Shown here: positions 4,936 to 35,292 of the stretch, piece after piece | Numbering within the stretch: the first letter of the stretch is position 1 | Layout of the letters: the number at the start of each line of letters is the position of its first letter | Assembly (NCBI GenBank): GCA_902536695.1 | Contig: CACAYQ010000005.1 | Span: forward strand, 1-46,751 | Source: an uncultured Bacteroidota bacterium | GTDB taxonomy: Bacteria; Bacteroidota; Bacteroidia; Flavobacteriales_D; Parvicellaceae | Reading direction: 5' to 3' | DNA length: 46,751 nucleotides | The notes under the pieces: model-generated | Databases searched by the model: none | The model's input: only the letters and a program-made list of their open reading frames with translations | Told to the model about the DNA's origin: nothing | Position numbers and translations under genes: made by a program

Positions 4936-6201
4936 ATGTCCATTTTACTTCTATTTTCTTTAGTTCTTTTTTCTCTTTTATGTTCTGCTTTTTTTTCAGG
5001 TATGGAAATTGCATTTATTTCCTCGAATAAGTTGAAAATTGAGTTAGATAATAATAAAGGGGAAATTGGCGCAAAGATTCTTTCTTATTTCAGCGATAAA
5101 CCAGCTTGGTTTATTGCTACTATGCTTGTTGGTAATAACATAGCATTAGTTATTTACACCTTATATATGGCTGTGTTATTAGATCCATATTTGATGGCAG
5201 CTGGACTAGGGTCTTCATCTATATTACTATTACAAACTATATTTTCTACCATCTTCATTTTAATATTTGCTGAATTTTTACCAAAAGCTATATTTAGGTT
5301 GAATCCTAATTTCATACTTAAGCTCTTCAGCGGAATTCTTTTGGTCTTTTATATTTTATTATGGCCTATAACCTCCCTTGTTGTATATCTAACAAGAGTG
5401 ATTTTACGTTTTTTTGGTAAAGAAGATGGTAGTGATGAAAAGGTGAGTTTTAAAAAAACAGATTTAGATCAATATTTAGAAGAGCTTAAAAATGATTTAG
5501 ATGAAGACGAGGAAATGGAACATGATGTAAAAATATTTCACAATGCACTTGGCTTTTCGGAAATTATAGCAAGAGATTGTATGATCCCTAGGAATGAAAT
5601 TGTGGCACTTGAGATAAATGAATCCATTGAAGAATTAAAGTCACAATTCTTAGATACGGGATTTTCAAGAATTCTAATTTTTAAGGATAATATTGATAAT
5701 ATCATTGGATACGTACATAGTACAGCTTTATTTAAATCACCTGAAAATATAAAATCAGCATTAATGCCAGTTGGTATTATCCCTGAAGCGATGGCGGCCA
5801 ATCACATATTGGAAGATTTCATAGCAAAAAACAGAAATTTGGCTATTGTAGTAGATGAATTTGGAGGCACATCAGGTATTGTTACCATGGAAGACATAAT
5901 AGAAGAAATTTTCGGAGAAATAGACGATGAACATGATCAAGAACTGTATACCCAGAAGAAATTATCTACTAATGAATTTGTTTTCTCTGCCCGATTAGAA
6001 ATAGATATGATTAATGAAAAATATAGACTGGGGCTTCCCGAAAAAGAAGATTATGAAACTCTTGGAGGCTTAATTATTAATATTGCTGAAACAATCCCTC
6101 AAAAAGGAGATGAATACCACATCGATCATTTTCATTTTCGGATTTTAGAAGTTGAAGAGACAAAAATTGTGGAGGTGTATATCAAAGTAGATGAAGAATA
6201 G
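4936..6201 (+). CDS. CNNM/CBS-domain transporter (hemolysin C family, GldE-like)
   Basis: N-terminal DUF21-type TM domain, tandem CBS region (MIPRNEIVALEI, VVDEFGGTSGIVTMEDIIEEIFGEIDDEHD), CorC_HlyC C-terminus. Confidence 0.85.
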   Translation: MSILLLFSLVLFSLLCSAFFSGMEIAFISSNKLKIELDNNKGEIGAKILSYFSDKPAWFIATMLVGNNIALVIYTLYMAVLLDPYLMAAGLGSSSILLLQTIFSTIFILIFAEFLPKAIFRLNPNFILKLFSGILLVFYILLWPITSLVVYLTRVILRFFGKEDGSDEKVSFKKTDLDQYLEELKNDLDEDEEMEHDVKIFHNALGFSEIIARDCMIPRNEIVALEINESIEELKSQFLDTGFSRILIFKDNIDNIIGYVHSTALFKSPENIKSALMPVGIIPEAMAANHILEDFIAKNRNLAIVVDEFGGTSGIVTMEDIIEEIFGEIDDEHDQELYTQKKLSTNEFVFSARLEIDMINEKYRLGLPEKEDYETLGGLIINIAETIPQKGDEYHIDHFHFRILEVEETKIVEVYIKVDEE

Positions 6202-7410
6202 TTAATTAAATACCTTTTTCATTAATAACCTTCCCGGTAGATAGGATGACACAAACCCCACTATAGTTAAAATGGAAAGTAATAGGAATACATCAAAAGC
6301 TTTGATTACGATAGGCCAATATTCCAATGATGCATCACTAAATGTAATGAGCTTGAATTCCATTTGAACATAACAAATAAATAATCCAAATAATAACCCT
6401 AAGAGGCTTCCCAATAAGCTAATGAGCAACCCCTCCTTAAAAAAAATATTTCTTATCATATATTGATTACATCCTAAGGAAGATAATGTGAAGATATCTT
6501 TCTTTTTGTCGATGATGAGCATTGTAATAGATGAAGTTATGGTAAATGAAGATAACAAGAGTACAAAAATAAGTATGGCCATGACCATCCACTTTTCAGT
6601 AGCATTTGCCGCATAAATTAGTTTGTTCTTTTCTTCGTGAGAATAAGAAACTAGGTGCGGAAATTGTTTTTTGATATCCTCTTTAATTTCGTAGATATGA
6701 TCGTTGTTTTCAGCGTAAATTAAAATAGTTGAAGCCCCGTTTTTATAGTTAAAAATTTTGTTTGCTGCTTCGTAATCTATTACTGCGGTTGATTCATCTA
6801 TATCAGGATTTATAGAAAATACACCATTTAGGATGAAGTGGTTTTGTCTTAACAGACTTTGATTTTGTACTGAAATTTTTTGGTCTTTATTTACTGAATA
6901 CATTAAAATTTCAGACATGAAATTTTGATTCAGATCTACCTGTAATTGATGTTGTAGGCCATAGCCTAATATTATTCCAGGAAAAGACTTGAAATATAAA
7001 TCAGCCTTTCCCTGGGTAAGATCATGTTCCCAATTTTGATTTTGAAATAAAACGCTATCTAAACCTATTACAGTTGCCGCCACCCATCTCTTATTATATT
7101 TTAATATGGATGTTTCTTGAATTTGTTTGAAATAGTCTATGTTTTTTTTATACTTATTTAGATACGAAAAAAGGTGATCATCTGCATTTATTATTTTCCC
7201 TTTTTCAGGTTCTACGTACATGTCAGCTGCATGTCTTCCGTACATGTCTTCAACGTATTCTTGTATCCCATTAAATGCACTTAAAATGATAACAAGGGCA
7301 GAAGCGCTTATAAAAATTCCTAGAAAAGAAATAATGGAAATAACATTAATGATGTTTCTTGATTTTTTAGAAAAGAGATAACGCTTAGCTATAAACGTAG
7401 ATACATTCAT
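6202..7410 (-). CDS. FtsX-like/LolE-type ABC transporter permease
   Basis: MNVSTFIAKRYLFSKKSRNIINVISIIS start and four TM topology with MacB-like periplasmic domain. Confidence 0.82.
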   Translation of the reverse strand: MNVSTFIAKRYLFSKKSRNIINVISIISFLGIFISASALVIILSAFNGIQEYVEDMYGRHAADMYVEPEKGKIINADDHLFSYLNKYKKNIDYFKQIQETSILKYNKRWVAATVIGLDSVLFQNQNWEHDLTQGKADLYFKSFPGIILGYGLQHQLQVDLNQNFMSEILMYSVNKDQKISVQNQSLLRQNHFILNGVFSINPDIDESTAVIDYEAANKIFNYKNGASTILIYAENNDHIYEIKEDIKKQFPHLVSYSHEEKNKLIYAANATEKWMVMAILIFVLLLSSFTITSSITMLIIDKKKDIFTLSSLGCNQYMIRNIFFKEGLLISLLGSLLGLLFGLFICYVQMEFKLITFSDASLEYWPIVIKAFDVFLLLSILTIVGFVSSYLPGRLLMKKVFN

Positions 7411-25469: not shown

Positions 25470-25553
25470 GCCCGGGTGGTGGAATTGGTAGACACGCAAG
25501 ACTTAAAATCTTGTGACCATTTGGTCGTGCGGGTTCAAGTCCCGCCCCGGGTA
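25470..25553 (+). tRNA. tRNA-Leu (anticodon TAA)
   Basis: Class II tRNA: GCCCGGG...CCCGGGT acceptor pairing, anticodon arm CAAGA-CTTAAAA-TCTTG, variable arm, GGGTTCAAGTCCC T-arm. Confidence 0.93.
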
Positions 25554-25560
25554 CATAAAA
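25541..25560 (+). repeat. Left attachment repeat (attL)
   Basis: CCCGCCCCGGGTACATAAAA, inside the 3' end of tRNA-Leu; one mismatch to 35273-35292. Confidence 0.85.
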
Positions 25561-25561
25561 A

Positions 25562-25590
25562 GCCTCCTTAACTGATAAGGGGGTTTTTTT
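25562..25590 (+). terminator. Rho-independent terminator after tRNA-Leu, inside the element
   Basis: CCTCCTTA-ACTGA-TAAGGGGG followed by a T8 run. Confidence 0.7.
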
Positions 25591-25610
25591 TGTGCCAAAC
25601 TTTGTGCCAA
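25591..25610 (+). repeat. Terminal 20-bp motif, left copy (candidate arm-type recombinase/excisionase site)
   Basis: TGTGCCAAACTTTGTGCCAA, identical to 35144-35163. Confidence 0.65.
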
Positions 25611-25721: not shown

Positions 25722-25985
25722 ATGCAAGTTGTACAAATTAATTCAATAGAGTTTGAAGATTTACTGGATGGAGTCTACAAACTCGGCAAAAGACTAGATA
25801 AGATCGATGAGAAACTAAGTGGTAAATGCATTGAATATGTTCCGCTAAATCAAGCTCTTAAAACTTTAGGGATCAGTAGAAAAACAGCAGATAACTGGCA
25901 TAGACAAAAAATACTAACTAAGAAATATATAGGCTCTAAAGTATTTTATTCTATAAGCGATATTAAGAAAGTAATGGAGATATAA
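25722..25985 (+). CDS. HTH DNA-binding protein (excisionase-like, HTH_17/MerR-type)
   Basis: PLNQALKTLGISRKTADNWHRQKILTKKYIGSKVFYSISDIKKVMEI; first gene from attL. Confidence 0.7.
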   Translation: MQVVQINSIEFEDLLDGVYKLGKRLDKIDEKLSGKCIEYVPLNQALKTLGISRKTADNWHRQKILTKKYIGSKVFYSISDIKKVMEI

Positions 25986-25994
25986 TTAATAGGT

Positions 25995-26528
25995 ATGTTT
26001 CTAGAAAAAAAAGAAAAAGAAAAGGAAATTACTATAGATTACGAATTTCCTGATGGTAGTATTTTAAAGAATGAAAAAGTTAAATATAAAGCCAGAGATT
26101 TCACCTATTTAAATATAGATAATCAATGGTTTTTAACTAATGATTTAAGCTATAAAGCCAACCTAAAATATCTTGGTCCATATGTTCTAGCAACTATACT
26201 TTATTGCAAGAATTTAGGGAAATTGACCTATGTTCAATGCAGTAAAAAGATTGGAGAGGATAACTTAAAAGCTCTTATTGATTTGGAAGAAATACACATA
26301 TATGAAGATGAGGAGATAAAATACGTAAAGGTCAATTTGGGTGAAAAGACAATATATAATAGTTGTGTAGGGAGTATTAGGAAAAGAATTAGTGCAATGG
26401 GACTTAAAAAGGAACTAAATAGAACCCCAAATGCTAATGATGTTCTACAACACAGAAAAAAAAATGCACCCTTAAAAATAAATACTCATAAAATCTACAA
26501 GACTGATAAAGAAAACAATACTTATTAG
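25995..26528 (+). CDS. Hypothetical protein of the integrative element
   Basis: 177 aa ORF directly following the HTH gene; no family recognised. Confidence 0.5.
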   Translation: MFLEKKEKEKEITIDYEFPDGSILKNEKVKYKARDFTYLNIDNQWFLTNDLSYKANLKYLGPYVLATILYCKNLGKLTYVQCSKKIGEDNLKALIDLEEIHIYEDEEIKYVKVNLGEKTIYNSCVGSIRKRISAMGLKKELNRTPNANDVLQHRKKNAPLKINTHKIYKTDKENNTY

Positions 26529-26736: not shown

Positions 26737-27420
26737 ATGACTAAAGAGGAAGCAATAAAAAAACTTAAAGAAGCAAAGGAGCTTAGAGATTTAGAAGTTA
26801 TTTCATCGGAGGAATATAACAGTCTTTTAGAAAAATATAAACCTTTACTTTTAGATGAAGAAAGTTTTGATAATACAATTCCTAGCAATCATTTAACTTA
26901 TGTGCCAAAAGATCACAAATCAGTTGCTGATAACAATTTAGCTGAAAGGCAAAAAGGTGATTCAACACCTTCTGAAGGCAACACTGCAGCTAGATCAAAA
27001 CAAAATAACACTACAAATAAAAATTCAAATCAAAATACAACTGGTACTATATTGTGGTTAATATTTTTCTCTCCTGTTGGTTTATATAAAATGTGGAATA
27101 GAAGATATTGGACAAAAAGTACAAGATGGATAATTACAGTTGTTTGTATTCTTGTTTATTCAGCTTTTTCGGAAAGTGGAGGGTTATCAAAAAAAGATAA
27201 ATTGAATATACAAAGTGAATATACAACGCCAAAAACTAATAATATTCCAGCGGGTGTTTCTACAGCTTGCTATTGTCAAGATGCACTTAGCGGAGGTAAT
27301 ATTTATAACTCATCTTCAGATTACATAAAATGCAAAAGAATGTATATATGTTTTGAAAACGCCCAAGCAGATTGTATGTTTGGTACAAGTAGAGTGTGGA
27401 CAACATGTATTGGTCGCTAA
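26737..27420 (+). CDS. SHOCT-like N-terminus, two-TM protein with C-terminal six-Cys module
   Basis: MTKEEAIKKLKEAKELRDLEVISSEEYNSLLEKYKP (SHOCT-like); TM region TILWLIFFSPVGLYKMWNRRYWTKSTRWIITVVCILVY; C-terminal ACYCQDALSG...CKRMYICFENAQADCMFGTSRVWTTC. ATG start chosen over the upstream TTG. Confidence 0.65.
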   Translation: MTKEEAIKKLKEAKELRDLEVISSEEYNSLLEKYKPLLLDEESFDNTIPSNHLTYVPKDHKSVADNNLAERQKGDSTPSEGNTAARSKQNNTTNKNSNQNTTGTILWLIFFSPVGLYKMWNRRYWTKSTRWIITVVCILVYSAFSESGGLSKKDKLNIQSEYTTPKTNNIPAGVSTACYCQDALSGGNIYNSSSDYIKCKRMYICFENAQADCMFGTSRVWTTCIGR

Positions 27421-27496
27421 AAATCTTTTTAAAAGTCACTTAAATAGTATAACAACAGAGTTTAATTTGAATTCATCACATCCTTAAATATAAAAT

Positions 27497-29617
27497 GTGA
27501 ACAAAAAGGAAGCAATAAAAAAACTAAAGTATTATAAAGAATTACTAGAGATAGAAGCAATATCAAAAGAAGAGTACAGTAAATACGTAAAACTCTACAA
27601 GCCACATATTTTAGCAAATGAAGATGATTATGAAGATAATAACAAAGAAACTTCCCGAGAATCATCTAAAGTTAAAGATCCAAAAACTGTTATACAAAAA
27701 GAAATAAATCCTAAGGAACAAACACCTATTTTACAAAAAGAAATAAATCCTAAGGAACAAACACCTATTTTAGAAAGAGAGGTTGATACAAAAAATAATA
27801 ACAAAGAAACTTCCTCAGAATCGTCTAAAGTTAAAGATCCAAAAACTGTTATACAAAAAGAAATAAATCCTACAAATCAATCATCAAAGACTGAAAAAAA
27901 ATCTCTCAAAAAACAAAAGAAGGATATAAAAAGCCCCAAATCTAAAAAATCAATTTATGTTCTAATGGGTCTGTTTATAACAATAATAGTTCTTTTACTC
28001 TTTTCTGATTCAGATTCAACTTCTATATTATATGAGGAAAGATTTACAGGCTTAAATGGAAAGGGTATAACTTCTACAGAAACAAATCTTACTAGATGTA
28101 ATTGGTCTGTTGATGTTTCAGGGGCGTCTTTAACGAATGGTTTTAAACATTTAAAAGTAGTAAATGAGCGTTTAGAAGCAAGATATTTAGATGGCCCAGC
28201 ATATTGGTTATCCCCATCTATTTCAATTACTGATTATAATAATGTATCAATAGCTCTGGCTGCAACTGAAATAGGTGCAATTGAAGTTGACGATGTTATT
28301 GAAACTGAGTATCGAATTGACGGTGGTGAATGGATAACATTCTCAACAAATGGATCTTTGAGTGATGATTTCACTTCTGCAGCTGTTTATCAAGACGGAC
28401 TAAGTGGTAATGTGCTTGAAATTAGAGTTAAAATGGAAAATAATAGCTCACAAGAATACTTTAGAATTGATGATATAATAGTTACTGGTGATATTTCGGA
28501 TTCATTGCATACTGGTGAAGACAGCTCTAATCCAAAAAATAAAGTTACAAATCAAATTATCAGTCAACCCTTAATTAAAAAAAAGAAATTTATCTCCGAA
28601 AATGATAAATATTTTAAAAAGGATTCAAAAAATAGTTTTCCTATTTGGTCTTGGATAAATCAGTTTGAAAAGTCTGGTGATACGAAAATAGATAGCACTT
28701 ATGATGATGTGTATGAATTTTACGCAAAAGAAAAAACAACGGAGTTCGCTAACGGAATGATTGTTTATGAAAGAAATAATAGAGAAGGTATTATTTTATC
28801 TATTGAAAACTTCCCATATAAAAGTGTAGATGATCAGATTAATTTCATCAGAAAGGCAAAACAAATAAACATTTTAGATATCGAATACCCTGATGATTAT
28901 CCTAGACTAAACAGATTAATTTGGGAAAAAGAGTCAAAACTACAGTGGGGTCAAGGTGAGTGTATTCCATCCTATGCACCATTTTCTCCTTCAATTGAAA
29001 TCATTAAAGAAAGTAACCCAAACTGGCTTAGAGAAGAATGGAAATATGAGTTTTTAAAACTAAGTGAAGATGTTGGAGATGGTAAAGGCATAACTGTCGA
29101 GAATACTCCTCAATTATTAAATCCTAAAAACTGGGATGGGTTTTTAATGGCAGAGTTTACAGTAGAATCAGAATGTAAAATACAAAGTGTTAAAGTTTTA
29201 AAAGAACATCCAAATACAACTATTAATATTAATAACCAAGACATAGAATTTATAGAGGATGATCTTAAAATGAAATTTAAATTTTCTTGTGATAAATCAC
29301 TTAAACCATTAAATAAATTTATTAAAAGAATTCATTATTTAAGTTCAGAAAATAATATTAAACCTGAAAACAAAGTGTCAGCATCAATTATATTGGGAAG
29401 TTTTAGTATAGAAGAAAATGCTAGAAAATTAGAAAAGAATTTAATTTTAGAAGGATATTCTCCGGCTTTTACATCTCAGACATCAATAATAAATGGAAAA
29501 TTAAAAAACAACTTTAAAGTATCAGTTATTATAAACGATACCAAAGAAAAGATAAGTGAAATTCATTCAAATTTAAAAGTGAAATACAAAGATGCATGGA
29601 TAAGCTATGATAAATAA
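27497..29617 (+). CDS. SHOCT-like / TM / lectin-like (MAM/LamG-type) / SPOR-like modular protein
   Basis: N-terminal MNKKEAIKKLKYYKELLEIEAISKEEYSKYVKLYKP; TM VLMGLFITIIVLLLF; YEERFTGLNGKG...FRIDDIIVTG beta-sandwich-like region; C-terminal SASIILGSFSIEENARKLEKNLILEGY. GTG start. Confidence 0.6.
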   Translation: MNKKEAIKKLKYYKELLEIEAISKEEYSKYVKLYKPHILANEDDYEDNNKETSRESSKVKDPKTVIQKEINPKEQTPILQKEINPKEQTPILEREVDTKNNNKETSSESSKVKDPKTVIQKEINPTNQSSKTEKKSLKKQKKDIKSPKSKKSIYVLMGLFITIIVLLLFSDSDSTSILYEERFTGLNGKGITSTETNLTRCNWSVDVSGASLTNGFKHLKVVNERLEARYLDGPAYWLSPSISITDYNNVSIALAATEIGAIEVDDVIETEYRIDGGEWITFSTNGSLSDDFTSAAVYQDGLSGNVLEIRVKMENNSSQEYFRIDDIIVTGDISDSLHTGEDSSNPKNKVTNQIISQPLIKKKKFISENDKYFKKDSKNSFPIWSWINQFEKSGDTKIDSTYDDVYEFYAKEKTTEFANGMIVYERNNREGIILSIENFPYKSVDDQINFIRKAKQINILDIEYPDDYPRLNRLIWEKESKLQWGQGECIPSYAPFSPSIEIIKESNPNWLREEWKYEFLKLSEDVGDGKGITVENTPQLLNPKNWDGFLMAEFTVESECKIQSVKVLKEHPNTTININNQDIEFIEDDLKMKFKFSCDKSLKPLNKFIKRIHYLSSENNIKPENKVSASIILGSFSIEENARKLEKNLILEGYSPAFTSQTSIINGKLKNNFKVSVIINDTKEKISEIHSNLKVKYKDAWISYDK
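27695..27772 (+). repeat. Exact 39-bp tandem duplication in linker of the modular gene
   Basis: CAAAAAGAAATAAATCCTAAGGAACAAACACCTATTTTA at 27695-27733 and 27734-27772 (QKEINPKEQTPIL x2). Confidence 0.85.
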
Positions 29618-29739
29618 TTTATATGAACATAGGCAGTTAGTTTTTTAATCACTATTACACTCACCCTCTGTTTAGTATTCCGTAACATTCTGTCGTTTCC
29701 CAATTTGGATAAGTAACATCATTACATCCACATATTTGG

Positions 29740-29985
29740 TTAATAAAATGAACCAATAAGTAAAAACCCTAATATCATAACTGCTAAAATTGTAATCATT
29801 ACTATTATTAAAGTTTTAGCACCATTATAAATAAAATATCCAGCGTTTCCTAATTTTTTATTTTCAAGTTCTTTAGATGCATTAAATAATTTTATTCCAC
29901 CTTTCTTGATTTGATTAAGTCCATAAAGCACAAAACAATAAATAACTAAATAAATGGTATATGTTAATACTAAAGTTTCTTCCAT
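29740..29985 (-). CDS. Small two-TM membrane protein
   Basis: 81 aa, two hydrophobic segments; preceded by a repeated upstream block. Confidence 0.5.
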   Translation of the reverse strand: MEETLVLTYTIYLVIYCFVLYGLNQIKKGGIKLFNASKELENKKLGNAGYFIYNGAKTLIIVMITILAVMILGFLLIGSFY

Positions 29986-30047
29986 CTTGTAAACTTTGAT
30001 ACTAATTTAAGAAAAGTATTTATTGGCTTAATTGGTGTGGATTAGTT
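29986..30047 (-). repeat. Duplicated upstream/promoter block, copy 1
   Basis: ~62 bp, about 5 mismatches to 32866-32927; both sit directly upstream of a minus-strand start codon. Confidence 0.75.
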
Positions 30048-30071
30048 AAGAAAGCAAAGGGAGGTTAGTAA

Positions 30072-30185
30072 TTAAATTGCTGAGTTGATTTCATCAATTG
30101 TCATATCCTCTAAATATAGATTAATTTGAAGAGCATTAGCTTTAATTAAAGTAGCCCTAAATGGTTGTTCAAGTTGATCAAACAT
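30072..30185 (-). CDS. Possible 37-aa small ORF
   Basis: MFDQLEQPFRATLIKANALQINLYLEDMTIDEINSAI; not in the ORF track because of length. Confidence 0.3.
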   Translation of the reverse strand: MFDQLEQPFRATLIKANALQINLYLEDMTIDEINSAI

Positions 30186-30215
30186 AGGCCAAACATTTTA
30201 AGTGACTAAATGTTT

Positions 30216-31565
30216 TTATTTATAGCTAATCCATACTCCTTTGTGAGTTTTTTTAATTTTTAGCTGAGTTTCTTTTATATTTTTTTTGGTGTCATTTAAT
30301 AAAATTGACACTCTATTAACTGAGCCTATTTTCGAAATTTCAATATTCTTATAGCCCTCCGATACTAATTCTTTTTTTAGTTTTTTTGCATTTTCTAATG
30401 AACCGAAACTTCCTATTATTAATGAGGCTGAAATTATACTATCATTATTTTTTTGTGGATTAATATCCTCCCTATTTTTTTCGATTTTAGAATTTATTTT
30501 TTTTAATATAACAAGTTCCGCTGTTTTAACCCAACCCTCAGTTGTTGTTCCCCTTTTCTTGTTATGATATGTGATAAAGGAAAAATCATCTTTTTCATCT
30601 TTAACAGTACATAAATCATCCTTAATTATAAATTTATTTTTTTTACTCCCATTTTCAATGTTCCAAAAATAAACCCTTTTTGATTTCGCCTTGGCAGACT
30701 TATATTCTTTAGTACGATCTTTGTTTTCTAATAAATTAGTTTCAATTTCTGAATTTTTCAGTGAATCATTTATTTCGTTGTTAAATTTTTTGCTCTTTAT
30801 CTCTTGATCATTCTTTTTACTCAATAAATCACCATTTTTATTATACTTTATAAATTCAATTTGCAAACTATGTGGTTTTTTGACAAGTTCTATTTCTGAA
30901 CCATTTGGAGTCTCATATACTACGTAGTTAAATGACTGATCAATGGTTACCCATCTATATTTTTCAGGATAGCTGTAACTAATTTCATCTCCAATTGTAA
31001 GAGTTTCAATAGTATCATTTATGCTCGTGGCATTACCATCATTATCTGACTTATTATTAGCGTAGTTGTTAATAGAACCATTTTTTGTCCATAAAAAAGT
31101 GTATGATCTTTTATTGTGTGAAGTAATTAATATAAAAGAATCTTTATTTTTAATAATAATTCCTGTGAAAGATCCTTTATCGTCCTCTGGTATATTATTA
31201 AATTCTAATTCGTAAAAAAACTCATACTCTGTTATGCCATCTACAACTCTTTCTTGGGTATTAAGGTTAATGTCTTTATAAGTCAAAGAAAAATCAGATG
31301 GACTAAATTTAAACTCTCCTTTACGCAATGTATTGTCATTTTTAGTATTGTAAATGAATGTTTTATTTTTACTTAATGTGATATTACTATTATCATATTT
31401 ATTGTAATAAGACCCTGCAATTATATTTAATATTTTTTTTTCATCTGCGTAAGTATCAATTTTATCAGCAGAAGAAATCTTATCAATATAAATCTTATCA
31501 ATATTCATATCACAACTACACGTAAATACATAAAAAAATGATAATAAAAATATATTATTTTTCAT
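30216..31565 (-). CDS. Lipoprotein with SH3-like and C-terminal SPOR-like domain
   Basis: Signal/lipobox-like MKNNIFLLSFFYVFTCSC; KRVYFWNIENGS...GWVKTAELV SH3-like region; C-terminal SASLIIGSFGSLENAKKLKKELVSEGY. Confidence 0.6.
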   Translation of the reverse strand: MKNNIFLLSFFYVFTCSCDMNIDKIYIDKISSADKIDTYADEKKILNIIAGSYYNKYDNSNITLSKNKTFIYNTKNDNTLRKGEFKFSPSDFSLTYKDINLNTQERVVDGITEYEFFYELEFNNIPEDDKGSFTGIIIKNKDSFILITSHNKRSYTFLWTKNGSINNYANNKSDNDGNATSINDTIETLTIGDEISYSYPEKYRWVTIDQSFNYVVYETPNGSEIELVKKPHSLQIEFIKYNKNGDLLSKKNDQEIKSKKFNNEINDSLKNSEIETNLLENKDRTKEYKSAKAKSKRVYFWNIENGSKKNKFIIKDDLCTVKDEKDDFSFITYHNKKRGTTTEGWVKTAELVILKKINSKIEKNREDINPQKNNDSIISASLIIGSFGSLENAKKLKKELVSEGYKNIEISKIGSVNRVSILLNDTKKNIKETQLKIKKTHKGVWISYK

Positions 31566-31620
31566 ATTTATAGATTTCTAAAATTCAATTTAAAACATAT
31601 ATTATAAAATTTAGATAAAC

Positions 31621-32865
31621 CTAATAACACCTATCCCAAACATTTGAAGTTCCCAAGAGACAATCAGTTTTCGCATTATTAAAGCATATATACATTCTAA
31701 GGCACTTTGACCTAATTCCGACATAATATTCACCATAATCAACACCTGATAAAGCTTTCATACACGCACAGGCACTTGATTCTCTACTATCACTAGAATA
31801 ATCCCTTGAAGATTGTAACGATGGATGTGACGGTAGCATTTTTTTTAGTTCATATTTTTTAAGCAAACTGGGCGAAACGTTTGTTATTTTTCCTTTATTT
31901 ACTGTTATTCGTCCCAAGGTTTCAAAATTATCACCCACCTTAATATAATACGGTTCTTCGTGCATTACTTTTGTATTACCCCATCCCTTATAAGAATTAT
32001 CAACAAATTTTTCATCCACGTTGAAATAATATTCTCCTTCTAATGAAATTCCTTTAGAGGCAGAATTATAACCAGTTGAAACATAAACAGTATTCCCTTT
32101 TGTAAAGGATGTAGCAAAAATTTCTTTAGTAGCAAGACGCTGTGCCTTTTTTTTCCACTCAGGTAGGGGCTCTTCACCCATATAGGGCCTAAAATAACTT
32201 GCAAGAATATAGCCTTCGTTATCTTTAATTATTAAATCTAGAACCTCATTTCTAAATTCTGATGTATCCTCTAACTCCACAAAACTACTAATTATCGATC
32301 CTGCTTTTAAACCTAAAGAAATATCCTTCTTCTCCAAACTCGCATATTTACCAAGGATAGGACATTTAAATTCAAAACGATAATTTAAATTTTTATAATT
32401 AAACTGCCAATAATACCATTCTGGAATAATTCCAGATGAATCCTTAAGATTTTGAATTTCATTGTCCATATCTCCGATATGAATTACTTTTTCATAATTA
32501 TACATTTTTAAAAGTTCATCCATTGTAGGATTCTGAGAATTCAAACAAAAAATTCTATTACCATTGACTACTTCAAATCTCGAGAGTTTTTTGTTAGGTG
32601 TTTCGTTAGAAAATAATTTGTATTTGTACTCCCCGTTTTTAGTTTTGTAAATCTTTATTTTACCGTTATGTTTAAATTCATTTTCTTGTTCATATCCACT
32701 AAAATACATTGAAGGTGCTATTCTTTCAGTTGGAAATGGTAGATTAGTTCTATAAGTTCCCAGAAGATTATTTTTAATAAATTCCTGGTCTTCATCACTC
32801 ATAGCTCCTTGATTACAACTCCCGAACAGAGCCACAGCAAATACAAATACGAATAATCTTTTCAT
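31621..32865 (-). CDS. Lipoprotein with C-terminal six-Cys module
   Basis: MKRLFVFVFAVALFGSC lipobox; C-terminal ACACMKALSG...CLRMYICFNNAKTDCLLGTSNVWDRC matching the 26737-27420 protein. Confidence 0.6.
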   Translation of the reverse strand: MKRLFVFVFAVALFGSCNQGAMSDEDQEFIKNNLLGTYRTNLPFPTERIAPSMYFSGYEQENEFKHNGKIKIYKTKNGEYKYKLFSNETPNKKLSRFEVVNGNRIFCLNSQNPTMDELLKMYNYEKVIHIGDMDNEIQNLKDSSGIIPEWYYWQFNYKNLNYRFEFKCPILGKYASLEKKDISLGLKAGSIISSFVELEDTSEFRNEVLDLIIKDNEGYILASYFRPYMGEEPLPEWKKKAQRLATKEIFATSFTKGNTVYVSTGYNSASKGISLEGEYYFNVDEKFVDNSYKGWGNTKVMHEEPYYIKVGDNFETLGRITVNKGKITNVSPSLLKKYELKKMLPSHPSLQSSRDYSSDSRESSACACMKALSGVDYGEYYVGIRSKCLRMYICFNNAKTDCLLGTSNVWDRCY

Positions 32866-32927
32866 CTTATAAGTTTTGATACTAATTTAAGAAAAGTATT
32901 TATTGGGTTAATTGGTGAGGATTAGTA
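32866..32927 (-). repeat. Duplicated upstream/promoter block, copy 2
   Basis: Near-identical to 29986-30047, including TGATACTAATTTAAGAAAAGTATTTATTGG identical core. Confidence 0.75.
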
Positions 32928-33638
32928 ACCTATTCTTTTATTATTTCTGGCATATGGTAGTTTGAAGATATTTGGGTCATGGTAGGTCCTTGTGTACCTC
33001 TTAATTTGTCTTCTCACAGGATGTATCTCGGGTTCACGTTTCCATCTGCTAGCTATGTCCTTCTCATCTTTAAAATAATAATCTCTCACCCATTTGCGCC
33101 ACTTTGTTTCATTACACCTCATCAGTATTTTATTACCTCCAAACTCACTCCAAAAACACATAAATAAGGACTTGTTGTATTCTTCAACATCAAAGCTGTC
33201 TAAGACGTAAAGAAATGCCTTGTAGTGGTGATTTGTATGAAATATTCCAACCCATTTATATCTTTCAATCTCTTTTTCAAATAAATCAAATAAAGGATTA
33301 TTATTTGTTACTAATTCATGGTGTATGATTTTAAATTGTATCAGAGCATAATCGTTATTATACTCTGATTTGACTGCCCTAATTACCTCCTCAGGTGTTA
33401 AACGCCTAGCTATCTCTCTTCTAAAAGATTTTTCTAATTTTCTTGAGTAATTATATTTGGAAGTTTCAAATTGAATTGCAAATGCTCTAAGTTTAGCTCT
33501 TTTAATAAATTCATTTTGCCATTTTAAATGACCTTCAAGTCCCCATTCAAAACCATAAAATTTAATCTCTTTGCACCAAAACGAATAAATAACATTATTC
33601 TTTGCCTCTTGGTCAACTAAGTTTTTTTCTAATTTCAT
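32922..33638 (-). CDS. Hypothetical protein of the integrative element
   Basis: 238 aa, Trp/His/charged-rich, no family recognised; replication- or DNA-processing role possible but unsupported. Confidence 0.5.
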   Translation of the reverse strand: MKLEKNLVDQEAKNNVIYSFWCKEIKFYGFEWGLEGHLKWQNEFIKRAKLRAFAIQFETSKYNYSRKLEKSFRREIARRLTPEEVIRAVKSEYNNDYALIQFKIIHHELVTNNNPLFDLFEKEIERYKWVGIFHTNHHYKAFLYVLDSFDVEEYNKSLFMCFWSEFGGNKILMRCNETKWRKWVRDYYFKDEKDIASRWKREPEIHPVRRQIKRYTRTYHDPNIFKLPYARNNKRIGY

Positions 33639-33670: not shown

Positions 33671-33766
33671 TTACGGCTTAAAATACTTTACATACAACCA
33701 ACAACACAAGCATATTATTGTGCAAGTAATTATTACGATGTTTACCCAGTTTTTTTTATAATCCAT
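33671..33766 (-). CDS. 31-aa single-TM small ORF coupled to the integrase gene
   Basis: MDYKKNWVNIVIITCTIICLCCWLYVKYFKP; its ATG overlaps the integrase stop as TAATG. Confidence 0.45.
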   Translation of the reverse strand: MDYKKNWVNIVIITCTIICLCCWLYVKYFKP

Positions 33767-35103
33767 TATGCTATTCTTAAATGCTTTCTATTTACTTTTT
33801 TAAAGTAGTCAGTTTGGGTCCATCTAAGGGCGTGTTGTTCTTCCGTGACGTTTATATAGCCTAAAAGTACTTTTTCGCTCTTATGTCCGCTAATATTCAT
33901 AATATCTAAGGTGTTTACTCCCGCTTTGTAAGTTAAAGTACAAAAAGTCTTCCTGGCTACGTGATTTGTTAGTATTTCCCATTGTTTTGCCTCTAATATT
34001 TTACCATTAGCCAATTTTTTAGAAATCTTCTTATTCAGATTTGCTTTCTTAGCTAGGATTTTAAGAACCTCGTTAGAACGTTGAGAGCTTTCCGGCATAG
34101 GGATCCTTCCATATTTTTTGATAATATTAAGACCGATATTTGGTATCGGAACTACAACTCTACCACCTGTTTTTTGTTGGTTAAACTCTAAAACATCAAA
34201 AGAATTTCCTGCCTTATCCTCAACAGTTTTAATCTCTTTGTCTTTAAGTTCCAAGAAATCTCCTATTCTCATTCCACAAGTGTGAGCGTTAAATACAAAT
34301 ACATCTCTGTATAAATCATATTCAGGATTATCGGACAAATCTAACTTGTATAAAGTGTCTAGCTCATCTTCTGTTAATGCCCAGGAAAGAGTTTGGTTAG
34401 ATATTTCAGTCCACTCTCTTGAATTATACTCTGTCATTTGTTTTTTATAAGGTTTCATAGGTTCCTTATTTACAATAGCCTTAAAACAAACTATCCATTT
34501 GTTAATAGCGTTATTAAGATATTCGTTGGAATGTGTTTCGTAGTAATTAACGAATCTTGAGTGTAAAGTTTCATTGATTTGATGAGGTAATATTTTACCA
34601 AATTTTTTCTCATACTCTGCCCATTTATTTAAAGATCCTTTATGATTTTGAATAGTATTTTTAGAATATGGTTTTTTACCACTGTTTGTCTTGTGCTTAT
34701 AAAGCCCTGACTCCATACCAACAATAAATTCAGTCCATATCTTGGTGAGATCAAATTTTTCATTAGAAAGCTTAATTTTCTTATTCGTAACTGAGTTCCC
34801 AAAAGTTTTTTCTATTCTTTTAATCACCTCTTTGTCAAGACTTATATCGTTCTTGTAACACTCTTTAAGTCTTTCTATGAAATGAGCTTTAAATTCATAT
34901 AACTTATCATTGTAAATCTTAGCATTTGGCTCAGATGGAGTTATTTTAATTTTCTCTTTGTTTTGATCCCAGTTGCTACGATTATTAAGTCTAATGTTTG
35001 GGAAGATTCTGAATCTATTATTAGTTCCGTTTGATATACTTAAGTATATGTAGGTTTTGTTTTTAGATACCCGAGTATGGTATTTGAGAGTAGCATTAAT
35101 CAT
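33766..35103 (-). CDS. Tyrosine recombinase/integrase
   Basis: Catalytic-type motifs CGMRIGDFL, NHVARKTFCTLTYKAGV, ISGHKSEKVLLGYINV; N-terminal SAM-like/arm-binding region; adjacent to attR. Confidence 0.93.
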   Translation of the reverse strand: MINATLKYHTRVSKNKTYIYLSISNGTNNRFRIFPNIRLNNRSNWDQNKEKIKITPSEPNAKIYNDKLYEFKAHFIERLKECYKNDISLDKEVIKRIEKTFGNSVTNKKIKLSNEKFDLTKIWTEFIVGMESGLYKHKTNSGKKPYSKNTIQNHKGSLNKWAEYEKKFGKILPHQINETLHSRFVNYYETHSNEYLNNAINKWIVCFKAIVNKEPMKPYKKQMTEYNSREWTEISNQTLSWALTEDELDTLYKLDLSDNPEYDLYRDVFVFNAHTCGMRIGDFLELKDKEIKTVEDKAGNSFDVLEFNQQKTGGRVVVPIPNIGLNIIKKYGRIPMPESSQRSNEVLKILAKKANLNKKISKKLANGKILEAKQWEILTNHVARKTFCTLTYKAGVNTLDIMNISGHKSEKVLLGYINVTEEQHALRWTQTDYFKKVNRKHLRIA

Positions 35104-35143
35104 ATTAAAATTTGTAATCGTAAATATATGCTACTCAGAAAAT

Positions 35144-35163
35144 TGTGCCAAACTTTGTGCCAA
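35144..35163 (+). repeat. Terminal 20-bp motif, right copy
   Basis: TGTGCCAAACTTTGTGCCAA, identical to and in the same orientation as 25591-25610. Confidence 0.65.
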
Positions 35164-35272: not shown

Positions 35273-35292
35273 CCCGTCCCGGGTACATAAAA
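35273..35292 (+). repeat. Right attachment repeat (attR)
   Basis: CCCGTCCCGGGTACATAAAA, one mismatch to 25541-25560. Confidence 0.85.

Follow-up and report, generated by a model that had tools for sequence, protein, structure and literature searches.

The four envelope-protein genes discussed here (26737, 27497, 30216 and 31621, named by their lowest coordinate) are probably the mosaic cargo of an integrative element at a tRNA-Leu gene, which takes its genes from a pool of exported-protein cassettes spread across the family. The window, i.e., the whole stretch of DNA that was analysed, comprises 46,751 nucleotides. In it, a small mobile element of ~9.75 kb is integrated at the tRNA-Leu gene of a flavobacterium-like bacterium. 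Its core features are the following:

25470-25554, + strand: tRNA-Leu(TAA), the integration target (ARAGORN)
25541-25558, + strand: left attachment repeat, i.e., the 3' end of the tRNA (17/18 match to 35273-35290)
25590-25610, + strand: 21-nt direct repeat TTGTGCCAAACTTTGTGCCAA, near the left end of the element
25722-25985, + strand: small HTH protein (Pfam HTH_17 below cut-off; phrog_66, 3e-5) with relatives in sister elements
25995-26528, + strand: element protein adjoining the HTH gene, with a weak relative in L055 at the corresponding position
32922-33638, - strand: integrase-linked gene; in sister islands its homologues lie beside an integrase or alone
33766-35103, - strand: tyrosine recombinase (integrase; Pfam Phage_integrase, 2.1e-10; phrog_1)
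35143-35163, + strand: second, perfect copy of the 21-nt repeat, near the opposite end of the element
35273-35290, + strand: right attachment repeat, repeating the tRNA-Leu 3' end

The boundaries of the element are good. As is typical of tRNA-integrated tyrosine-recombinase elements, the tRNA 3' end is duplicated at the far end and an integrase gene lies at one end. The direct repeat is probably an arm site of the integrase, and the HTH protein looks like an excisionase or a regulator. The only PHROG matches in the window element are the integrase and the HTH protein; packaging or capsid-hijack genes, by which phage satellites are recognised, were not found by this search. Tycheposons are characterised by a tRNA target, a tyrosine recombinase, an HTH gene, a size of ~10 kb and accessory cargo. 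The window element resembles them in all these traits, but its cargo is arranged with gene-end tags. The envelope cargo of sister elements differs from that of the window element. Proteins of the GRPKGSLNK type are present in the sister elements L052, L055 and L056.

An earlier note had described the four cargo genes as coding for envelope proteins that share and swap terminal modules. All four open reading frames were found at the positions which that note gives, and their products do have the appearance of envelope or exported proteins:

26737-27420, + strand: cargo 1, with a SHOCT-like N-end (26737-26871), a hydrophobic middle and a six-Cys C-end (27259-27411)
27497-29617, + strand: cargo 2, with a SHOCT-like N-end, a TM segment, a captured beta-sandwich domain, a TonB-C-like part and a SPOR C-end
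28005-28497, + strand: adhesin-like segment of cargo 2, 83% DNA-identical to one repeat of a 3307-aa adhesin-like host gene (G000:C29)
29072-29350, + strand: TonB-like segment of cargo 2, with 42% amino-acid identity to the C-terminal end of a TonB-like host protein encoded beside ExbB/ExbD-type genes (G000:C2)
29366-29611, + strand: SPOR-like C-end of cargo 2
29740-29985, - strand: cargo 5, an 81-aa membrane protein after the tag (profile match below cut-off)
30216-31565, - strand: cargo 3, lipoprotein-like, with a SPOR C-end (30222-30443; Pfam SPOR, 8.9e-6)
31621-32865, - strand: cargo 4, a lipoprotein with a six-Cys C-end (31627-31779)

The sharing of modules is borne out by alignment scores. 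The SHOCT-like N-end common to 26737 and 27497 scores 108 against a shuffled null of 30 ± 6 (Z 13.3), the SPOR-like C-end common to 27497 and 30216 scores 161 against 37 ± 7 (Z 18.6), and the six-Cys C-end common to 26737 and 31621 scores 136 against 25 ± 5 (Z 21.4), with all six cysteines aligned. The pairs for which no sharing had been claimed, 26737 × 30216, 27497 × 31621 and 30216 × 31621, stay at noise level in the shuffle test (Z 0.1-0.7). Judged by their sequences, the three similarities are true homologies, far over shuffled controls. At the codon level the paired ends are 56-63% identical in nucleotides, with 38-54% of third positions identical, so the exchanges are old, not recent.

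Modules at the ends of the cargo proteins and of proteins from sister cassettes resemble SPOR, SHOCT, TonB C-terminal and T9SS C-terminal sorting domains, but the SPOR end of 27497, the SHOCT-like ends of 26737 and 27497 and the TonB part are all under the Pfam cut-offs. For PF05036 (SPOR; cut-off 21 bits), the 30216 protein passes with 26.4 bits and the 27497 protein stays below with 13.7. Pfam gives no PF09851 (SHOCT) match for 26737 or 27497; the label "SHOCT-like" is, therefore, one given by eye. Another cassette protein does pass PF09851; it is encoded in G017 (L102:5805-6392), at the same tRNA-Leu locus. The six-Cys module matched no family in a Pfam search, and a PDB structure search with its model (pLDDT 80) yielded no match. 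The 26737 protein has at most two hydrophobic stretches.

Alignment shows 27497 to be a chimera, containing segments that have relatives among the genes of the host (own-genome comparisons were run on stretches of the host genome). The lectin-like domain that had been suspected in its middle is confidently predicted as a beta-sandwich (pLDDT 88.8). The segment 28005-28497 belongs to the same fold class as known binding domains (TM up to 0.63), i.e., a hyaluronan-binding module (4d0q), a porphyran CBM (8xmz) and the Eph ligand-binding domain, to which its identity is ≤12%.

An intergenic repeat in the element, at 30041-30068, led to arrays in other genomes that bear the same sequence as a gene-end tag. 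In the window the relevant features are:

29980-30046, - strand: 67-nt leader that shares 91% identity with the one at 32860-32926
30041-30068, + strand: 28-nt gene-end tag, in gene sense CTAACCTCCCTTTGCTTTCTTAACTAAT; an intergenic repeat, 0 expected by chance
30072-30185, - strand: end of a truncated gene, its stop 3 nt ahead of the tag
32860-32926, - strand: first-cassette junction, the end of the 32922 gene being fused directly to the leader type found after the tag

The element holds one first-cassette junction and only one intact tag, and the four genes are not directly separated by tags. Among 39 genomes of the family the tag repeats in 12, of genera g1 and g6; the reversed tag, used as a control, has no match in the same 39. 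In other genera of the order only single matches with 3 mismatches were seen, and those in G140, G316 and G390, lone TCTGCC variants, were taken as noise. The g1/g6 islands lie at tRNA or tmRNA genes and hold arrays of mostly exported-protein genes, which close with the same 28-nt tag. An ORF of at least 50 codons stops at -40 to +8 nt of 40 of the 62 tags (random 8.8%), and neighbouring tags have the same orientation in 36 of 37 cases. Signal-like ORFs make up 34/56 in cassettes versus 88/285 (p=5e-5). Independent tags were found in g4 (13 matches) and g3 (7 matches), neither with matches elsewhere in the family. A symmetrical core is not obvious in the tags. In this lineage a cassette is made up of a leader and an ORF, whose stop codon is marked by a short tag that is specific to the genus.

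Cassette boundaries coincide with tags, as is expected of mobile integron cassettes. A cassette of 1150 nt (gene plus tag) is 99.2% identical at two arrays of G021, the identity beginning within the first tag, and a mini-cassette of ~180 nt is ~99% identical between G023 and G015, where the neighbours differ. The genomes compared are drafts. Around tags homology is one-sided in 33 pairs, many of which carry a common T9SS C-terminal domain and hence are non-independent, and two-sided in 0. At control gene ends it is two-sided in 24/55 (p=1e-6 versus tags); without the pairs having a common T9SS C-end, the one-sided and two-sided counts at tags are 7 versus 0 (p=0.037). Since homology between loci stops at the tag, entire genes are swapped between tags, in the manner of integron cassettes. 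The SPOR end recurs in a cassette of G021, with a tag-like sequence behind it, and the SHOCT-like segment in an exported protein of G008 that ends at a g3 tag.

Integrons are the standard textbook means of single-gene shuffling in bacteria. In Bacteroidetes they are reported to be very rare (PMC9024848). The tag arrays are like integron cassettes and CALIN arrays in being built of single ORFs of the same orientation with a recombination-like site near each stop, where homology ends. Unlike integron sites, however, the tag is conserved in sequence, has 28 nt and lacks an attC-type fold (on either strand, the folding of tags from three genera is no better than that of shuffled sequences; z -0.9 to 1.0). 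Also, the array start adjoins a phage-type integrase and a 32922-type gene, and the arrays sit in tRNA/tmRNA islands. In 0 of the 12 tag-bearing genomes, which are incomplete drafts, did an IntI-type integrase exceed the TIGR02249 cut-off; XerC/D-like matches only were obtained. On the fold test and the absence of an integrase over the cut-off, the integron reading of the tag was rejected. The IntI-like recombinases of G015, G016 and G019 are XerC/D-like genes of 276-293 aa; they are not the partner of the tag, because they are absent from the tag-rich G021 and G023 and have no tag alongside. The first candidate for the enzyme at the tags is the integrase of the element together with the 32922-type protein.

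We tentatively consider a non-integron cassette system in one flavobacterial family, in which genus-specific gene-end tags may be recognised by a recombinase, possibly the element integrase plus the 32922-type protein, that would take up genes for exported proteins in tRNA/tmRNA islands, reshuffle them and fuse them anew. Recombination would recur in such islands, at tags with exchange of whole genes, at other short similarities with exchange of gene ends, which would yield the shared termini of the cargo proteins. The latter lie within coding sequence, and tag recombination alone, therefore, cannot account for them; that the two processes are linked is what we infer. Each cargo protein would work on its own, either in the envelope or at the cell surface, rather than in a joint complex. 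The SPOR module may contact peptidoglycan, the TonB-like part may serve as a periplasmic link, and the beta-sandwich may bind glycans or proteins.

The main rival to a cassette enzyme is homologous recombination at short repeats. The tags would then be ordinary regulatory or 3'-UTR sequence (terminator, sRNA target or promoter part), and RecA would swap genes via similarity of tags, leaders, signal peptides and C-ends. This is rather unlikely. Leaders and signal peptides around the tags are indeed conserved too, which extends the similarity to 60-100 nt, and upstream-homologous pairs keep their identity a few nt beyond the tag. In L094, however, a foreign flank joins the cassette inside the 28-nt tag, which leaves little homology on that side. 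Nor do the tags look regulatory: they have no hairpin, an Rfam scan matched tRNAs alone and nothing at tags, and some tags lie at array ends without a downstream array gene (L054, L057:464, L090:6231), so that they are not simply promoters. By eye, TTTG is present, but it lies too far from a TAnnTTTG-like box, which speaks against the promoter reading as well.

That the shared ends arose simply because paralogues were duplicated in tandem within the element and then diverged, with no link to cassettes, is improbable. Of course, 26737 and 27497 adjoin on the same strand and have related N-ends, and the identity between shared ends is low and old. The C-ends, however, are common crosswise to genes on opposite strands with unrelated remainders, and a host gene contains a relative of one 27497 domain.

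It is very improbable that the four proteins make up a single envelope system, as the earlier note had surmised, whether for surface exclusion, superinfection exclusion or a contact interaction, and with parts that bind via shared ends: all are predicted to be membrane or exported proteins of one element and share ends pairwise, yet their homologues never co-occur in the 39 family genomes, an outcome that the note itself had named as refuting, and the modules recur singly within unrelated proteins, so that a conserved four-part machine is not supported. Among these 39 genomes there is no further full-length homologue of 26737, 30216 or 31621; 26737 matches elsewhere solely via its N-end, 30216 solely via its SPOR end, and 31621 lacks any homologue. 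The Cys module is found in 1 other genome among 399 of the order, as a stand-alone lipoprotein (G208), and a scan of a genome collection gave a single relative, which is again the G208 gene; L013, among the weak matches (E 0.002-0.006), was on reading unlike a relative. Neither viral contigs nor phages yielded a match when searched with 31621, 32922 and the Cys module, and a plasmid search with 27497 was likewise negative. An exclusion or contact function found no positive support (PADLOC, 0 matches for 7 proteins; PHROG, none for the cargo), and the cargo matches no defence or phage family.

If the non-integron cassette system is real, cassette-type gene shuffling would have arisen anew from other parts, with sites that are short and differ from genus to genus. 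Its arrays, given over mainly to exported proteins, would explain surface variation in these bacteria and also why the genes of an element resemble recombined ends of one another.

The tRNA-Leu element of the window is about 9.75 kb long and is recognised by the following features:

25470-25554: tRNA-Leu gene
25722: HTH gene
33766-35103: tyrosine recombinase
35273-35290: repeat of the tRNA-Leu 3' end

Sister elements in the family have an integrase, often adjoined by a relative of gene 32922. Their cargo differs: it comprises TPR, LRR and MORN-repeat proteins and lipoproteins, i.e., envelope or secreted proteins (types partly assigned by eye). Three of them (L052:4390-4692, L055:13396-13776, L056:8984-9361) encode small GHKLATGRPKGSLNK-type proteins, which are possibly related to phage packaging; the elements in question could be phage satellites. 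At a contig end of genome G022 (L049:3-290 and 798-1547) lies a close but decayed relative of the window element, its broken integrase being 86-96% identical.

The ORFs of the cargo genes 26737 (+), 27497 (+), 30216 (-) and 31621 (-), named by their starts, are present in the window. The earlier note saw them linked pairwise by common ends, and these links are real. Local alignment against shuffled sequence yields Z 13.3 (N-end, 26737/27497), 18.6 (C-end, 27497/30216) and 21.4 (six-Cys C-end, 26737/31621), while the three unclaimed pairs stay at noise level; BLAST and phmmer agree. The shared ends display 56-63% nucleotide identity and, in the codon comparison, only 38-54% at third positions, which implies that the exchanges are old. 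The label SHOCT formally applies to neither 26737 nor 27497, and SPOR formally fits only the 30216 protein.

Gene 27497 is chimeric. Its stretch 28005-28497 shows 83% nucleotide identity with one of the repeats in an adhesin-like gene (3307 aa) located at another place in this genome; the product of the stretch is modelled as a galactose-binding-like beta-sandwich, and its nearest structural match is a hyaluronan-binding module (TM 0.63). A further part, residues 526-618, has its match in the C-end of a TonB-like protein, whose gene comes after ExbB/ExbD-type genes (operon identity by eye). We infer a transfer from host to element. The beta-sandwich domain, of ~160 aa, is seen in several giant adhesin-like proteins (L021:2608-3081, 5011-5535, 6727-7221; L022:458-982) and at 28005-28497; at L022 and L021:6727 it looks inserted within another repeated module, as if it were itself mobile. 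Short tandem repeats, a 39-nt unit and a 122-nt pair, lie at 27603-27883, in the linker that precedes the TM segment of this protein.

That the four genes form a single envelope system could not be upheld. Among 39 family genomes 31621 has no homologue, 30216 is matched by its SPOR end only and 26737 by its N-end only. The Cys module occurs in one more genome among 399 of the order and once in a collection of 84,980 species, both times in the same gene, a 94-aa lipoprotein that carries just the module. In these sampled, partly incomplete genomes, homologues of the four thus do not co-occur, which is the outcome that the earlier note had named as speaking against its inference of a common function. 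The cargo proteins had no PADLOC or PHROG match.

Part of the leader of gene 29740 is found again in other genomes. The common part, in gene sense, is CTAACCTCCCTTTGCTTTCTTAACTAAG, located at stop codons; we call it a tag, and leader, ORF and tag together a cassette. It occurs in 12 of the 39 family genomes (drafts, one per species; the window genome is 62% complete), in genera g1 and g6 only; the reversed pattern had zero matches there. An ORF stop lies near 40 of 62 copies (8.8% expected), and neighbouring tags are oriented alike 36 times and opposed once. Signal-like starts, scored by rule instead of a trained predictor, are found in 61% of tag-attached ORFs vs 31% (p=5e-5). Arrays are located near tRNA-Ala/Met, tRNA-Leu, tRNA-Arg, tRNA-Gln and tmRNA genes; one (L102, genome G017 of another genus) occupies the same mutS-tRNA-Gly-tRNA-Leu locus as the window element.

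Genera g4 and g3 have tags of their own, AACCACCTATTCTGTTTTTAGTATATTAGAT (13 copies) and CCCTAACCCTTCATTCTAATCTT (7 copies), each in two genomes and absent from the rest of the family. In g4 the first tag follows the stop of an integrase-linked 32922-type gene, and the two genomes are 90% identical as far as this tag, no identity being reported beyond. In the window the end of 32922 is joined directly to a leader that elsewhere follows a tag. The end of the 32922-type gene looks like the array start, which may be likened to attI.

Window modules recur inside cassettes: the SPOR end in a TPR protein of G021, with tag-like sequence immediately after, and a SHOCT-like segment in an exported protein of G008 ending at the g3 tag (E=1e-3, modest). 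The signal peptide of 31621 resembles those of several tagged cassettes. An 81-nt region upstream of two cargo genes (29966-30046 and 32846-32926) is 85% identical between its copies; a similar stretch lies near a cassette-like gene on contig C2 of the same genome (L185).

Cassettes appear to be mobile. In G021 a 1150-nt cassette is present at two loci with 99.2% identity, the homology beginning within the upstream tag and ending just beyond the downstream one, and a mini-cassette of ~180 nt is common to G023 and G015 with different neighbours. When tag flanks were compared all-against-all, 29 pairs had homology upstream only, 4 had it downstream only and none had it on both sides, vs 24/55 two-sided at ordinary gene ends of the same loci (p=1e-6). 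Many of the pairs share a T9SS C-terminal domain, and leaving these out gives 0/7 (p=0.037); the cassette claim therefore rests on few independent cases, together with position and orientation. The core of the g1/g6 tag is also seen, apparently between convergent genes, in one IMG/VR viral contig (IMGVR_UViG_3300028284_000003, 107,642 bp; L089:834-854), a possible carrier of cassettes.

The system works like an integron, yet neither an integron integrase nor an attC fold was found, and the arrays are therefore not classed as one. A large serine recombinase-like gene adjoins the tmRNA-linked array of G021 (L094:5118-6512); the tags thus occur in islands with differing integrase types. The literature searched yielded no account of such arrays, which is weak evidence, as it did not cover most subscription papers. 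The main rival explanation is RecA recombination via short similarities. That genes are exchanged in a tag-bounded manner is shown, and recombination in the same islands may also have fused gene ends within the window.
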